NCBI RefSeq assembly: GCF_000429925.1
Contig: NZ_AUCU01000013.1
Span: 1-64,000, forward strand
Source: Desulfatirhabdium butyrativorans DSM 18734
GTDB taxonomy: Bacteria; Desulfobacterota; Desulfobacteria; Desulfobacterales; Desulfatirhabdiaceae
DNA: 64,000 bases
Reading direction: 5' to 3'
This document shows, piece after piece, positions 38,777-63,085 of this stretch. The first letter of the stretch is position 1. Each line of letters starts with the position of its first letter. A model generated the notes under the pieces. That model made no database searches. It was given only the letters and a program-made list of their open reading frames with translations, and had not been told where the DNA came from. The position numbers and the translations under genes are program-made.

Positions 38777-39574
38777 ATGGGCAAGCCAGATCATCGTTGG
38801 GCCAAGCTTGGCGATGCATGCGGTCTATCCGACGCCATGGACAACATTCTGCTGGATCAACTCGAATATCTTGCCGTCATGGATGACGATCGCGTGCAGA
38901 AGCGCTTTCTCAAGGATCTGATCCGGGAATATGTCCGTCTGGAAAAGCAGGTGAAATCGCTGCTGAACAATACGCTGCCTGCGCCCGTCGCAGATGAAAT
39001 CCAATTCGAAGGACGCTTTTCACCCAGAGCCTATTTCTGTACGATTCTGTTCTCCGATTTTGCATCCTTTACATTGCTTGCCGAAAAGCTCTCGATGGAT
39101 CAATTGATCGAAACGATTCATGTGATTTTTTCGCACTTCGACGATGTGGTTTCCCGGCATAGGGGTACCAAGATCAAGACCATCGGAGACGCCTATATGG
39201 CCGTTTTTGGCGCTCCCGAGACGTACAGCGATCATCCGCTGGAAGCGATTCGAACGGCGCGTGAAATGATAGAATGGCTCGAAGCGTTCAATCGGGAAAG
39301 GGATTATCCCTTCCGGATGCGGATCGGCATTCACACAGGAGAGGTTATGGCCGGGGTGGTCGGCAGGGACAGAATGCAATTTGACGTATTCGGCGATCAG
39401 GTCAACATCGCATCCCGCATGGAATCTTCCGGAGAGCCGGGCCGTATCAATGTGTCGGAAACGACCTATATGTTGACGCGGGATCGCTTCGACTTCGAGC
39501 CGAGGGGGAAAATCGCCGTTAAAAACAAGCCCGATATGAACGCCTATTTCGTTCGATCGGAAAAATCCGTTTGA
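38777..39574 (+). CDS. Class III adenylate/guanylate cyclase
   Basis: 265 residues. A short N-terminal helical region (~90 residues) with a coiled-coil look is followed by one cyclase homology domain: TILFSDFASFT (metal Asp), KTIGDAYMAVFG (second Asp), and FDVFGDQVNIASRMES (the transition-state N-x3-R). The substrate position reads D in VFGDQVN, which is closer to adenylate cyclases. No sensor domain is fused, but a di-iron MBL protein begins 22 bp downstream and could supply an oxygen signal. CGGAGGGGG precedes the ATG. Confidence 0.9.
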   Translation: MGKPDHRWAKLGDACGLSDAMDNILLDQLEYLAVMDDDRVQKRFLKDLIREYVRLEKQVKSLLNNTLPAPVADEIQFEGRFSPRAYFCTILFSDFASFTLLAEKLSMDQLIETIHVIFSHFDDVVSRHRGTKIKTIGDAYMAVFGAPETYSDHPLEAIRTAREMIEWLEAFNRERDYPFRMRIGIHTGEVMAGVVGRDRMQFDVFGDQVNIASRMESSGEPGRINVSETTYMLTRDRFDFEPRGKIAVKNKPDMNAYFVRSEKSV

Positions 39575-39596: not shown

Positions 39597-40406
39597 ATGC
39601 AGCAGGGTAGAACACATGTCAGACCGATTCAGGTCGCAGAGGGGATTTACTGGGTAGGGGTCCGAAAATCGGGATGCGGACTATCATGCAATCCCTATTT
39701 GATCGTAGAAGGAGACAAGGCCGTTCTCATCGATGCCGGAAGCCGGTCTGATTTTGCTTTTGTGATGATGAATATTCTGCAGGTCGGAATCGATCCCGCC
39801 CAAATTGTTGCATTGATTTACCAGCACTATGACCCCGATTTGTGCGGATCTATGTCGAATTTGATCGACATGTGCGAAAACCCCGCCCTGCAGGTGATTT
39901 CCGAATCGTCGAACAACACGTTCATCTCCTATTATATTCCTTCGGAAAAGACATCGCTGATCACATCCATCGATACCCAGAATTTTCGCTATGACGTGAA
40001 CGGCAGAATCCTTCGGTTCATTCTGACGCCCTATGCCCACAATCCCGGAAGCTTCGTCACCTATGACGAGACTACCCGCACCCTGTTCAGCAGCGATCTG
40101 TTCGGTTGCTTCGGGTTTTCCGAAAGCCTGTTCCTGGAATTCGATCAGAAATGTCATGCATGTACCGCATTCGACAACTGCCCGCAGGGCAATCCGCTGT
40201 GTCCGATGCAGGAGATTCTTTCGTTTCATCGGCGCACCATGCCCTCGTGCAAATCGCTCCGCTATGCCATGCGCAACATCAAGGAGCTTGACATTCAGTG
40301 TGTCGCTTCTCAGCATGGTGGTATTTTGCGAAAACGGGAAGATATCGCCTTTGTGATCAACCAGTTGGAATTGCTGGAAGAGGTCGGTATCGATGGAATT
40401 GCATGA
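39597..40406 (+). CDS. Di-iron metallo-beta-lactamase-fold protein (ODP/flavodiiron-like) with four-cysteine insertion
   Basis: 269 residues. The MBL metal motif is atypical, as in flavodiiron proteins: H77-x-D79-x-D81 (QHYDPDL, where typical flavodiiron proteins have HxExDH), then H148 (YAHNPGS), D167 (FSSDLFG) and H240 (SQHGGI). There is no flavodoxin domain, so it resembles the stand-alone ODP oxygen-binding domain. Between D167 and H240 lies an insertion, C186-x2-C189-x5-C195-x6-C202, not seen in ordinary flavodiiron proteins and likely to bind a metal or a cluster. The paralogue at 59035 has the same insertion. Location beside the cyclase and the rubrerythrin-like gene suggests oxygen or NO sensing. 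Confidence 0.82.
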   Translation: MQQGRTHVRPIQVAEGIYWVGVRKSGCGLSCNPYLIVEGDKAVLIDAGSRSDFAFVMMNILQVGIDPAQIVALIYQHYDPDLCGSMSNLIDMCENPALQVISESSNNTFISYYIPSEKTSLITSIDTQNFRYDVNGRILRFILTPYAHNPGSFVTYDETTRTLFSSDLFGCFGFSESLFLEFDQKCHACTAFDNCPQGNPLCPMQEILSFHRRTMPSCKSLRYAMRNIKELDIQCVASQHGGILRKREDIAFVINQLELLEEVGIDGIA

Positions 40407-40507: not shown

Positions 40508-40966
40508 ATGGTCGACGAATCTCAGCGGGAAATCATTGCTCTGTTGTACAAACAGGAAATGCTTCTGGCGAAACTCTATCAGCTGTTTGCCGGTCAATTC
40601 CCGGAACAAACCGCCTTTTGGGAAAGCCTTTCCAAAGAAGAACTTACCCATGCTTCCTGGATCAAACAACTGTTGGAAGCGGAGCAAAAAGGGATCGTTT
40701 CTTTTCAGAACGACAAGCTGAATGCGAAGGCGTTGAAAACCTATATCGCCCATTTGGAAAAGGCCTTTGAAAAAGCCAATGCAGGCGGGTTTACGGCCAG
40801 AAGCGCCCTGGCATATACCTTGGACTTCGAGCGCTCGCTTGTCGAAAAGAAGGCTTTTACGGGTTTCAAAGGAATTACGACGAAGGCTGATGCCGTTTTG
40901 GATCGGTTGCACCAGGAAACCCAGCGCCATGCCCAAAAGGTCGAGGAAATGATGAAACAAGGATGA
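40508..40966 (+). CDS. Rubrerythrin-like ferritin-fold protein
   Basis: 152 residues, all helical. The N-terminal helix has an E-x-L-L-A-K-L-Y pattern and the next has EELTHASW (E-x-x-H); a later helix contains ALDF..SLVEKKAF and Glu/His-rich ends (ETQRHAQKVEEM). This fits a minimal rubrerythrin/ferritin four-helix di-iron fold without the rubredoxin tail. It has an AGGAGG site before the ATG. It lies in the cyclase-MBL-hemerythrin group and could bind or remove peroxide. Specific activity is not predictable. Confidence 0.75.
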   Translation: MVDESQREIIALLYKQEMLLAKLYQLFAGQFPEQTAFWESLSKEELTHASWIKQLLEAEQKGIVSFQNDKLNAKALKTYIAHLEKAFEKANAGGFTARSALAYTLDFERSLVEKKAFTGFKGITTKADAVLDRLHQETQRHAQKVEEMMKQG

Positions 40967-41619: not shown

Positions 41620-42027
41620 ATGGCTCTTCTGGAATGGAACGATTCACTCAAGGTAAACGTGGCGGTTATCGATCGGCAGCATCAACGTTTGGTGCAGATG
41701 ATCAACGATCTGAACGATGCCATGAGAAAAGGAAAAGGCAAGGATGCATTAGGCAAGATTCTAGACGAGATGGTGCGTTATGCCATGACCCATTTCTCGA
41801 CGGAAGAGACGTATTTCGATCGGTACCAGTATCCGGAAACGGCACCCCACAAAGCCGAGCATGCAGCCTTCGTAAGCAAGGTCAAACAGTTCAAGGCCGA
41901 TTACGAGAAGAACAGGGTGGGTCTCACCATCGAACTGATGAATTTTCTCAGTGATTGGCTGGTCAAGCACATCAAGGGCACGGACAAGAAATACGGGCCA
42001 TTTTTCAACGAGAAAGGGCTTCAATAG
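41620..42027 (+). CDS. Bacteriohemerythrin
   Basis: 135 residues with the full set of di-iron ligands: H21 (DRQHQRL), H58 and E62 (HFSTEE), H77 and H81 (HKAEH), H117 and D122 (KHIKGTD). It binds oxygen reversibly and in anaerobes serves to store, carry or sense oxygen. GGAAAGGAAAAC precedes the ATG. It is one of three oxygen-related proteins within 2.5 kb here, and may be co-regulated with the cyclase. Confidence 0.95.
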   Translation: MALLEWNDSLKVNVAVIDRQHQRLVQMINDLNDAMRKGKGKDALGKILDEMVRYAMTHFSTEETYFDRYQYPETAPHKAEHAAFVSKVKQFKADYEKNRVGLTIELMNFLSDWLVKHIKGTDKKYGPFFNEKGLQ

Positions 42028-55407: not shown

Positions 55408-55509
55408 GATTACGACAACGATAACGATGACGATAACGACAACGACAACGATGACGACAACGATAACGACAACGATGACGACAACGACAACGATAACGGC
55501 AACGACAAC
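55408..55509 (+). repeat. Hexanucleotide tandem array (GACAAC/GATAAC/GATGAC)
   Basis: Seventeen consecutive 6-bp units mostly of the form GA(C/T)(A/G)AC (GATTAC and GGCAAC are the exceptions) lie between the repeat at 55281 and the uvrC end. In one frame it would encode an Asp/Asn ladder, but no gene extends through it with a start and normal composition, so it is treated as non-coding. Confidence 0.85.
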
Positions 55510-55583
55510 GATTCTGCCCCGCGTTGAGGAGAGGGGGATTTTCACAATAACCGCACGGACGACAAGGTCCGCTCCGTGGCCCG

Positions 55584-58057: not shown

Positions 58058-59029
58058 TTATCCCCGCCACTCCAGCCCCAGCAAACTGATATCATCCTGA
58101 ACAGGTCTTTTCCCGCCAAAAGCCATCATGTCCTGGAACAGGAATTTCAACCATTCCTCCACCGGTTTTTCGACATGTTTTTTCATGGAAAATACGAGGC
58201 GATCCAAACCGAACTGCTCCCCCGAAGGATTCTGATACTCCGTAATTCCATCCGTGTACAACAGGAGCCTATCCCCGAGTTGAAGCGCATTTTCTCCCTC
58301 CTCAAATGGCAGGATACCTTCGAGCCCGATCAATGGCCCGCCTACATCCAGTTTTTCGATGGTGCCGCTTGCCCGAAGCAGAATTGCGGGAACATGGCCG
58401 GCATTGCAGTAATTGAGTTTTCCTGAATCCAGATCGAGAACCAGATAAATCACCGTGATGAACTTGTCGAAACGCTCGACGGGGTATTCACGATCCAGCG
58501 CCTGGATCACCTCGAGGGGAGAAACGATTGGGGTTTCGGCGGATTCCGACTTGTTGCGCAAGAGGGCATATCCCGAAAACGGCTGGAAAAACTGGGATAC
58601 GGATACCGTCACCAGTGCCGCGGGCACCCCGTGGCCGCTGACATCGAGCATGTACATGCCCAGATGTCTCGAATTGAGGGGGAAAACGTGAAAGATATCG
58701 CCGCCAATCACCTCGGATGGCGTAAAATGCCAGGCCACCGTAACGGCATCCTGCTCCGGAATTCGCTGGGGCAAAAGGCTTTTCTGAATTCCGGCTGCGG
58801 CCTTCAGGTCGTCTTCCAACCTGGACTGCTTGCTTGCAAGCTCGATCGCCTGCTCCCGCAGCCGGCGATGAACCCCGGTGTATTTACGGATCAGCTCTTT
58901 GAGCAGTGCATTGCCAATGGCCCTGTCCGATTTTTCGACCCGATAGGACATCCATTCGCGTGTCAGGTTCGATACGCGTTTCTGCAGTAAATCGCTTTGA
59001 TGAAGGGCGCTGTCGAAAACCGTTTCCAT
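58058..59029 (-). CDS. PP2C-type (RsbU/SpoIIE-like) serine phosphatase
   Basis: 323 residues from the ATG at 59027-59029; a longer frame upstream runs inside the MBL gene in another reading frame and is not used. An N-terminal helical, coiled-coil region (LLKELIRKYTGVHRRLREQAIELASKQSRLEDDLKAAAGIQKSLLP) leads to the PP2C domain: metal Asp in SEVIGGDIFHVF, MLDVSGHGVPAALVT, LYCNAGHVPAIL-like, and LLLYTDGITEYQN and QDDISLLGLEW. Such phosphatases act on anti-sigma antagonists in partner-switching. It begins 5 bp after a di-iron MBL gene, so an oxygen signal may feed it. Confidence 0.9.
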   Translation of the reverse strand: METVFDSALHQSDLLQKRVSNLTREWMSYRVEKSDRAIGNALLKELIRKYTGVHRRLREQAIELASKQSRLEDDLKAAAGIQKSLLPQRIPEQDAVTVAWHFTPSEVIGGDIFHVFPLNSRHLGMYMLDVSGHGVPAALVTVSVSQFFQPFSGYALLRNKSESAETPIVSPLEVIQALDREYPVERFDKFITVIYLVLDLDSGKLNYCNAGHVPAILLRASGTIEKLDVGGPLIGLEGILPFEEGENALQLGDRLLLYTDGITEYQNPSGEQFGLDRLVFSMKKHVEKPVEEWLKFLFQDMMAFGGKRPVQDDISLLGLEWRG

Positions 59030-59034
59030 CGGGG

Positions 59035-59880
59035 TTACAGTCCGAAAAATACATCGTTGTTCTTGGATTTCAGGCCATCGATACCGACATGATCCAGAGT
59101 GAGCAGTTTGTCCGTGATCAATTGAATGTCCTGAGACTGGGTCAGAACACCGCCATGCTGGGGTGCGATGATGAGGGCGGGAATCTCCTGAATCAGATGG
59201 ACGGCATGGCGCAACGCCCGGTTGGATGTCATCACGGTTCGATGGAAGGAGAGGATATGATCGACCGGGCAGTCGGGAAGATTGCACGAAAGTGTGCGGG
59301 TGCAGCCCTGGCATTGTGGATTCAAGCTCAGGAAAAGCTTCCAGTCTTCTCCTGAGCTGCCGAAAAGATCTCCGGTAAAGAGTACGCCTGTTTTCAGGTC
59401 GTAGGTCATGAAGCTGCCCGCCGAATGGGCATAGGGAGTCGGGATGAATTGGAGGGTTCTGCCGGAGGAAAACGGATAGCGGTGATTCAGGGTTTCGGTT
59501 TCGACAATATCCATTCGGACGCCGTAATGGCGGATGAACGATACATTGGGTTTCGAAGTGAGAATCTGAACATTTCCGGGCAGGAGCAGGTCCTCGAAAT
59601 GGGGGAGTGCGGCGCACAGATCGGGGTCGTAATGCTGGCAGATGATCGCCCGGATGGAAGCGAGTTCCACACCCGTTTCGAGAATCTTGGTCATGACGGC
59701 AGGAAAGTCGAGCCTGCTTCCTCCGTCGATGATGACCGCTTCCCCGCCATCGACAATCAGATAGGGATTGGCGTGCAGCGGAGTCTCCCGCTCGCTCCCC
59801 ACCCAGTATACATCCCGGGCGATTCGAACCGGACCGCTCATATCAAGGTTCAATTCCAGAATATCGGCCATCTCGGTCAA
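59035..59880 (-). CDS. Di-iron metallo-beta-lactamase-fold protein (ODP/flavodiiron-like), paralogue of 39597
   Basis: 281 residues. The ligand pattern is the same atypical one as in the protein at 39597: H83-x-D85-x-D87 (QHYDPDL), H152 (YAHSAGS), D171 (FTGDLFG) and the late His in PQHGGV. The four-cysteine insertion is again present, C190-x2-C193-x5-C199-x4-C204 (CQGCTRTLSCNLPDC). There is no flavodoxin domain. It ends 5 bp before the PP2C phosphatase ATG, so the two are co-transcribed and a sensor role is likely. A second Met 9 bp in is an alternative start. Confidence 0.85.
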   Translation of the reverse strand: MTEMADILELNLDMSGPVRIARDVYWVGSERETPLHANPYLIVDGGEAVIIDGGSRLDFPAVMTKILETGVELASIRAIICQHYDPDLCAALPHFEDLLLPGNVQILTSKPNVSFIRHYGVRMDIVETETLNHRYPFSSGRTLQFIPTPYAHSAGSFMTYDLKTGVLFTGDLFGSSGEDWKLFLSLNPQCQGCTRTLSCNLPDCPVDHILSFHRTVMTSNRALRHAVHLIQEIPALIIAPQHGGVLTQSQDIQLITDKLLTLDHVGIDGLKSKNNDVFFGL

Positions 59881-61180: not shown

Positions 61181-62215
61181 TCAATAGGTGTCGTAGCACA
61201 GGTGCCGCCATCGTTCAAAAGAAGCCAGTCTTTCGGCCACGTTGACCTGGAATGCGGATTCAATGGGTGCAAAAAAATCTGGATGGTTGTCAAATACCTG
61301 CTTCATGCTGTCGAAAGCGATTCGCAGTGCTTTTACAGTCATTTTGCCCATCGGTCTGCGACAGCCTCCGGATGGCATGCCCAAAATCGACATCATGGCC
61401 TTGATGGCCAGCGGGTTTCGGGCACGGAAAACGACGTCTCCAAAGGGTGTCGACTCCATTGTCTTGACCGTAACCAGATTGAACAGCGGATCGAGTGCCT
61501 TTTTTAAAGCCAGCGCCTTTTCCTGATTGCCTTCCACCGCATGTTTGACCATCGATACGATGGGACCGGGGACGATGTTCGTCATGACGGAAATCACACC
61601 GCTGGCGAGGATGCGGGCATCGCTCATCATCTCGAAGGTCAGGGCATCATCACCGGAGAGAATACGGTAATCCGGCCCGCAGCAGGCCCTGGTTTTGCGC
61701 ATGTTCTCCAGGTTTCCCGTGGCTTCTTTCACCGTGGAAACATTCGGGAACCGTTGATATGCCAATGCCAGATCCTCGGGCAGAAGCTGTGTTCCGGTTC
61801 TTCCCGGAATGACGTAGGGAATGATGGTTGTCTTCGGAAAAGCCGCAGCAATCGGTTCTACGTATTCCCGGCGGATTTCAAGGGAACTTGGGCCATTGTA
61901 ATACGGATCGACCAGGAGTAAAGCATCGGCGCCGACCTGAACCGCATGGGCCGATGCTTCCATGGCTTCCTGGGTGTTGTTGCTACCGGTTCCGGCAATG
62001 CATGTGCATTTCGACTTCGTCAGTCCGGCAATGAAGGCAACCACATCCAAATGCTCTTTCCAGCTCAGGGCAGGGCTTTCCCCAGTCGTGCCGACAGCAA
62101 GTATACCCAAAATGCCGTTTTGAATCTGGAAATCCACCAGTGCCCGCAATCCTTCGTAATCGACCGCTCCATTGCGGAACGGGGTCACCATCGCCGTATA
62201 ACAGATTGCTTCCAT
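61181..62215 (-). CDS. dapA: 4-Hydroxy-tetrahydrodipicolinate synthase-like protein
   Basis: 344 residues from an ATG with GAGAGG upstream (62213-62215); an earlier ATG adds six residues. The aldolase barrel has GTTGESPAL (Thr43, Thr44), the Schiff-base Lys163 in VSTVKEATG, and Tyr134 in IIPYVIPGRTGTQL. It condenses pyruvate with aspartate semialdehyde in lysine and cell-wall precursor synthesis. At 344 residues it is ~50 longer than E. coli DapA, with a C-terminal extension, so another pyruvate aldolase of the same family is possible. Confidence 0.85.
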   Translation of the reverse strand: MEAICYTAMVTPFRNGAVDYEGLRALVDFQIQNGILGILAVGTTGESPALSWKEHLDVVAFIAGLTKSKCTCIAGTGSNNTQEAMEASAHAVQVGADALLLVDPYYNGPSSLEIRREYVEPIAAAFPKTTIIPYVIPGRTGTQLLPEDLALAYQRFPNVSTVKEATGNLENMRKTRACCGPDYRILSGDDALTFEMMSDARILASGVISVMTNIVPGPIVSMVKHAVEGNQEKALALKKALDPLFNLVTVKTMESTPFGDVVFRARNPLAIKAMMSILGMPSGGCRRPMGKMTVKALRIAFDSMKQVFDNHPDFFAPIESAFQVNVAERLASFERWRHLCYDTY

Positions 62216-62370
62216 TTTTCCTCTCCCCATCATGGCATGAAAATATCTTTGGCCGCAGGAAATGCGACAATGAAGGATGATGCTAAAAAAGCTTTACAAG
62301 CAAGTCAAGCCTAAATAGAATTTTCTGCGTTTACAAAAAGCCCCGCATGTGAAAATGTGAATTCAGGGTA

Positions 62371-62433
62371 ACGTTTTACGTTTTACGTTTTACGTTTTAC
62401 GTTTTAAGTTTTAAGGGTTACGTTTTAAGGGTT
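62371..62433 (+). repeat. Heptanucleotide array, family C (ACGTTTT/AAGTTTT/AAGGGTT)
   Basis: Nine consecutive 7-bp units: ACGTTTT five times, then AAGTTTT, AAGGGTT, ACGTTTT, AAGGGTT. The AAGTTTT and AAGGGTT units are the complement of the CTTAAAA/CTTAACC units at 47181-47250. Confidence 0.85.
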
Positions 62434-62807: not shown

Positions 62808-63059
62808 CCCATAGCCCATAGCCCATAGCCCATAGCCCATAGCCCATAGCCCAAAGCCCAAAGCCCAAAGCCCAAAGCCCAAAGCCCATAGCCCAAAGCC
62901 CATAGCCCATAGCCCATAGCCCATAGCCCAAAGCCCATAGCCCAAAGCCCATAGCCCAAAGCCCATAGCCCAAAGCCCATAGCCCAAAGCCCATAGCCCA
63001 AAGCCCATAGCCCAAAGCCCAAAGCCCAAAGCCCAAAGCCCAAAGCCCAAAGCCCAAAG
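62808..63059 (-). repeat. Heptanucleotide array, family A (CCCATAG/CCCAAAG), 36 units
   Basis: Exactly 36 units of 7 bp in 252 bp. Only two unit types occur, CCCATAG and CCCAAAG, which differ at one base and alternate in blocks. The complement GGCTATG/GGCTTTG is the unit of the array at 30814-30911. The array ends 26 bp before the tsaD start. Open frames exist through it in all three minus frames because 7 is not a multiple of 3, but they are simple artefacts of the repeat. Confidence 0.95.
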
Positions 63060-63085
63060 CCTATTTCCCATCATCCTGATGACCC

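Follow-up and report, generated by a model that had tools for sequence, protein, structure and literature searches.

A four-cysteine ODP family paired with adaptor-linked signalling enzymes, and its two representatives in Desulfatirhabdium butyrativorans

Two MBL-fold proteins with an unusual four-cysteine insertion are encoded in the 64,000-nucleotide stretch of Desulfatirhabdium butyrativorans DSM 18734 DNA analysed here (the window), one beside a PP2C phosphatase and the other beside a cyclase. This arrangement raises the question of whether such a protein is functionally tied to its neighbor and, if it is, how one kind of protein could serve different enzymes. We examined the two proteins, their partners and the related loci of other genomes.

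The phosphatase-paired protein (copy B; 59035-59880, minus strand) is a 281-aa open reading frame with a TTG start and an alternative ATG at 59871. It matches the Pfam ODP family PF19583 (E=2.6e-54, 184.5 bits), as does its cyclase-paired paralogue (copy A; 39597-40406, plus strand; E=1e-50, 172.7 bits), against a curated cut-off of 27.2 bits, and the two copies share 43% identity over 260 columns. Copy B had been predicted to carry the ligands of its paralogue, and we found all six di-iron ligands (H83, D85, D87, H152, D171 and H242 in copy B numbering; 59155-59634, minus strand) in both copies; alignment to the solved structures 6qrq and 6qnm places the same residues there, in the H-x-D-x-D, H, D, H set of the ODP family. 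The AlphaFold model of copy B has a pLDDT of 89, and its Foldseek matches in the PDB at ranks 1-10 are crystal structures of Thermotoga maritima and Treponema denticola ODPs (E 2.9e-19 to 3.9e-15). The C-terminal flavodoxin domain and the HxExDH motif of flavodiiron proteins are absent from copy B, which consists of the ODP domain only and reads H-Y-D-P-D-L at the motif. Domain content, motif and fold-match ranks led us to reject a flavodiiron enzyme or a beta-lactamase as the identity of this protein. The genome holds a third ODP-family gene (L011; G000:C2:52167-52742), which lies in a 407-aa open frame and scores 66 bits, well below the four-cysteine group.

The four cysteines are present in both copies as originally predicted, although the insertions do not match in full: copy B reads C190-x2-C193-x5-C199-x4-C204 (59269-59313, minus strand) and copy A reads C-x2-C-x5-C-x6-C. 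The x6 spacing is the family norm (40 of 70 members), and copy B, which otherwise matches, has a two-residue deletion. In alignments to solved ODPs the cysteine stretch falls in a gap, which makes it an insertion between ligand D171 and the next helix. Because copy B combines this shortened loop with a long branch (1.11) in the sensor tree, it may be diverging.

The partner of copy B is a 323-aa SpoIIE/PP2C phosphatase of the RsbU type (58058-59029, minus strand; PF07228, E=1.6e-40). The stop codon of copy B ends at 59035 and the phosphatase ATG stands at 59029, which confirms the 5-bp separation given in the original prediction. Read from 59617, the same frame gives a 519-aa open reading frame that overlaps the gene of the sensor; the family alignment favors the start at 59029. 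The metal-binding aspartate motifs GGD, DVSGHG, YTDG and DDIS are conserved, with D111, D129, D260, D312 and D313 in place as in SpoIIE/RsbU-type PP2C enzymes, and the catalytic site is thus intact as judged from its residues. The best PDB matches to the phosphatase model are RssB, the RsbU domain of Rv1364c and the PP2C structures of SiaA. The RsbT-binding RsbU_N domain had no Pfam match in the phosphatase or in 45 adaptors (described below), and no PDB sequence match; membership in RsbU itself was rejected for want of this domain. No STAS gene was seen beside the window phosphatase, and ten STAS matches lie elsewhere in the genome. A dapA-like gene lies near this locus (61181-62233, minus strand) and directly downstream of the phosphatase in two other loci (L042, L063), a conserved context. 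The window also holds tandem repeats: a 7-bp unit, CCCAAAG, in 36 copies at 62808-63061, read in frame as LWALGFG repeats, together with ACGTTTT repeats at 62371-62427 and ACGACA repeats at 55412-55511.

Copy A is preceded by a class III adenylate/guanylate cyclase (38777-39574, plus strand; PF00211, E=7.2e-53), and the claim that the two subfamily members of the window adjoin different output enzymes is therefore borne out. Downstream of copy A lie genes for a ferritin-like protein of 152 aa without a Pfam match (40508-40966, plus strand) and for a bacteriohemerythrin (41620-42027, plus strand; PF01814, E=1e-19). In L041 what are apparently the same two proteins follow the sensor as one fused protein of 307 aa, and L123 has the ferritin-like one. 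This context suggests an oxygen or iron link of the cyclase-type loci.

Of 194 genomes of the same order that were searched with a profile, 22 hold four-cysteine relatives, and a gap in E-value separates these (1e-50 or better) from other ODP-like genes (1e-34 or worse). A scan of 84,980 species genomes yielded 149 relatives, and 80 of these loci were read. The four-cysteine loci span about 13 phyla, including Thermodesulfobacteriota, Nitrospirota, Pseudomonadota, Bacillota and Synergistota, and also Spirochaetota, Chloroflexota, Fusobacteriota and Rifleibacteriota.

Random neighbors across genomes were the outcome that would have spoken against the original prediction, and they are not what we found. 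Among 90 four-cysteine loci, the neighbor is a signalling enzyme of one of five kinds in 88, and the remaining two loci are cut by contig ends; recurrence on this scale places the adjacency of copy B and its phosphatase far from chance. The partners are SpoIIE/PP2C phosphatases (29 loci), histidine kinases (18), GGDEF proteins (16), HD-GYP proteins with or without PAS (15) and class III cyclases (6). Six loci appeared partnerless in the first pass, and four of them (L069, L108, L130, L132) carry an adaptor-linked partner on closer search. The cyclase is encoded upstream of the sensor, unlike the other classes; in the 78 non-cyclase loci the median gap from sensor stop to partner start is -4 bp, every gap lies within 20 bp and most of the genes overlap. 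Further downstream, genes read by eye fit the outputs, with receiver-only regulators after the kinases of L055, L076, L086 and L095, a STAS-like protein after the PP2C of L080 and an RsbW-like ATPase after that of L091. In three loci of magnetotactic alphaproteobacteria (L090, L092, L096) a conserved gene stands behind the adaptor-linked GGDEF gene and encodes a large protein (1018 aa) with an apparent membrane segment.

The unrelated partner enzymes have one N-terminal helical adaptor of about 50 residues in common. Their first 60-70 or so residues align with the pattern LE..A...D..I...LL..L...Y...E..L..LN at a mean column identity of 35%, and a profile built from one output class finds the N-termini of the other classes with best E-values of 9e-6 to 4e-17. 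Below 1e-3 there were no matches among 420 shuffled sequences and one among 831 background open reading frames (L081_5, 8.7e-5, with the HD-GYP-class profile); the combined profile gave no match to it. No Pfam family covers the adaptor, one of 45 members having a weak match (TPR_TmcB, 6e-4), and no PDB sequence matched up to E=10. Heptad periodicity was not significant in a Fourier test (p=0.40). Since the shuffle and background controls were negative, we rejected the adaptor as a generic coiled coil. Profile A3 finds two adaptors only in the whole D. butyrativorans genome, those of the window phosphatase (58838-58993, minus strand; E=2.1e-14) and the window cyclase (38825-38968, plus strand; E=2.9e-14). 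In the AlphaFold model of the phosphatase (mf477eecf6626, a monomer prediction), adaptor and linker form one continuous helix, assigned by DSSP to residues 13-85 (58775-58993, minus strand; pLDDT mostly 75-88), that leads into the PP2C domain.

Adaptor and four-cysteine sensor also find each other reciprocally. When the order, phylum and 37-genome searches were pooled, 72 of 73 adaptor matches lay on the same strand as a four-cysteine ODP and within 1.5 kb of it; the 37 genomes were chosen as holders of a sensor locus and so speak to adaptor placement rather than overall frequency, while the order and phylum samples were not so chosen. The remaining adaptor (G068:C70) sits at a contig edge and probably continues a gene cut at the end of G068:C112. 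Conversely, 73 of 78 four-cysteine matches have an adaptor, the other five being at contig ends or, in G549, having a partner at a weaker score only. No adaptor lies within 3 kb of any of the 48 other ODP-like matches, and the genes of this kind that we examined are fused to GGDEF or SpoIIE, bear a C-terminal extension or stand beside chemoreceptors. Chemoreceptors (MCPs) were seen only beside ODPs outside the four-cysteine group (e.g. L161, L164), which sets that group apart from the chemotaxis subgroup of ODPs. Natural fusions of an ODP lacking the four cysteines to SpoIIE or GGDEF occur in L034, L035, L036, L037, L153 and L154. Taken together, the reciprocal pairing indicates that adaptor and four-cysteine sensor are one system and not casual neighbors.

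The di-iron ligands are invariant in all 70 aligned members of the main family, and the cysteines are nearly as conserved (C190 in 69, C193 in 65, C199 in 69 and C204 in 70 of 70). Two sensors, L149 and L150 (genomes G549 and G478), have lost most di-iron ligands and keep the four cysteines and an adaptor-linked kinase, so signalling cannot rest on the di-iron site in some members; these two sequences suggest that the cysteines take part in the coupling or form a second site of sensing. Both are encoded after a PilT/PilB-like ATPase gene. It is conceivable, and we judge it a minority prospect, that the four-cysteine site, probably with an iron-sulphur cluster, is the actual input, with the di-iron site in a structural or secondary role. 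The near-invariance of the cysteines, their survival in G549 and G478 and the confinement of the insert, among the loci examined, to the subfamily coupled to adaptors all fit such an input, as does the resemblance of C-x2-C-x5-C to iron-sulphur motifs. Against it, the main family retains its di-iron ligands without exception, C193 is replaced by another residue in five rows and the cysteines could equally bind structural zinc. We infer a metal or a cluster at this site.

Another possibility is that the four-cysteine ODP is itself an enzyme, O2- or NO-reducing or a hydrolytic MBL protein, which makes or removes a small molecule sensed by the adaptor of its neighbor. MBL and flavodiiron relatives are enzymes, and RsbQ, the alpha/beta hydrolase partner of RsbP, is a case of an enzyme fold recruited beside a PP2C phosphatase. 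However, a flavodoxin domain is missing, the prediction for the adaptor is a continuous helical rod with no ligand-binding fold, some members without the metal ligands keep the pairing and the solved ODPs have been described as sensors; we therefore regard an enzymatic role as improbable. That the adjacency is mere co-transcription of unrelated stress genes, with a common N-terminus due to generic coiled-coil similarity, could appeal to the frequency of helical linkers in signalling enzymes and to the low identity of the adaptor, but it seems to us scarcely credible, as neither composition-matched shuffles nor the 831 neighboring open reading frames match, the adaptor is found nowhere else in the searched genomes and in none of 600-odd genomes far from a four-cysteine ODP, and the pairing is kept across about 13 phyla.

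When the output labels are mapped on a tree of 90 sensors, 9 changes suffice, against 49 for shuffled labels, and none of 200 shuffles was as low; this is a quick-type tree with 35 weakly supported inner forks, and the exact number of switches is uncertain. The sensors with HD-GYP and with cyclase partners form one group each (support 97 and 99), the cyclase labels of L130 and L132 having been assigned before a sequence check that confirmed them, and there have been several exchanges among the kinase, PP2C and GGDEF labels. Output class thus tracks sensor lineage with few switches, which shows that sensor and output are inherited together and now and then the output is exchanged. The cyclase clade includes copy A, and copy B groups with Desulfoluna in a PP2C clade. 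As the two copies lie in different supported clades, each with its own output class, they represent old lineages, and a recent duplication with an output swap in this genome was rejected. The proposed modular sensor with interchangeable outputs is well supported at the level of sequence by signalling neighbors of five kinds with one adaptor in common; the window pair itself consists of members of two old subclades.

The explanation that we favor, and consider likely, is a split cytoplasmic sensor of oxygen and Fe(II) that docks on the common adaptor and controls dimeric output domains through a helical linker. Enzymes of all five output types commonly work as dimers whose control passes through helical linkers at the N-terminus. 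In this mechanism the di-iron site of the four-cysteine ODP would bind Fe(II) and O2 as in solved ODPs, and the sensor would act in trans on its partner by docking to the N-terminal adaptor. The adaptor helix would run on into the linker of the enzyme, and a change in docking with metal or oxygen state would rearrange the dimeric output domains. Copy B would in this way control the activity of the PP2C phosphatase, whose likely substrate is a STAS-type anti-sigma antagonist encoded elsewhere, and copy A would control cyclic-nucleotide synthesis. Both the sensor function and oxygen or iron as its signal are drawn by analogy from solved relatives, among which the T. denticola ODP is described as an oxygen sensor genetically coupled to a chemoreceptor without a sensing module (PMC7666581). 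A bolder version, in which the four cysteines carry an iron-sulphur cluster and a new general coupling module plugs one di-iron sensor into five outputs and reads oxygen together with redox or iron status, we offer only tentatively.

The closest known systems share parts of this arrangement. The ODPs of T. denticola (TDE2498) and T. maritima (Muok et al. 2019; PDB 6qrq, 6qwo, 6qnm, 6r9n) belong to the same Pfam family, have the same ligand positions, are the best fold match and likewise have as gene neighbor a signalling partner without a sensor of its own. They have no four-cysteine insert and pair with chemoreceptors, whereas the four-cysteine ODPs pair with an enzyme that carries a dedicated adaptor. 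Operons and fusions that join ODPs to varied signal-transduction genes have been reported previously (Muok 2019, as cited in the TREND 2020 summary, PMC7319448); variable ODP partners are thus known, and a four-cysteine subgroup, a common adaptor and one-to-one pairing do not appear in the excerpt of that summary. In RsbU/RsbT and the stressosome a trans partner likewise controls a PP2C, GGDEF or histidine kinase output through an N-terminal domain and helical linker (PMC12143880); here, by contrast, there is no RsbU_N and no RsbT-like switch, the input is an ODP, and the outputs extend to HD-GYP proteins and class III cyclases. A coiled-coil linker carries the action of RsbT on RsbU, and control through N-terminal helical linkers by shared modules has been described for phosphatases, cyclases of the GGDEF type and kinases (PMC12143880). 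A trans partner with a helical linker serving several output families has already been proposed (PMC12143880). RsbP/RsbQ similarly joins an enzyme-fold protein to a PP2C phosphatase, in a module also coupled to kinases and GGDEF cyclases (PMC12143880), with an alpha/beta hydrolase and a PAS domain in place of the MBL di-iron protein and adaptor helix found here. A literature search beyond the primary ODP paper returned no four-cysteine subfamily, adaptor, strict pairing, or HD-GYP or class III cyclase outputs within the subfamily, and nothing specific on ODPs with GGDEF, HD-GYP or SpoIIE; priority on the four-cysteine subgroup is not certain.

These loci provide a compact natural set for studying the control of five output folds by a single sensor, an issue explicitly posed for coiled-coil linkers (PMC12143880), and the undescribed adaptor domain can be used as a search term. 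They also give about 150 adaptor-linked enzymes (phosphatases, kinases, cyclic-di-GMP enzymes and cyclases) a likely input. Such enzymes occur in anaerobes, sulphate reducers, magnetotactic bacteria and acetogens, and many of them otherwise look sensorless.
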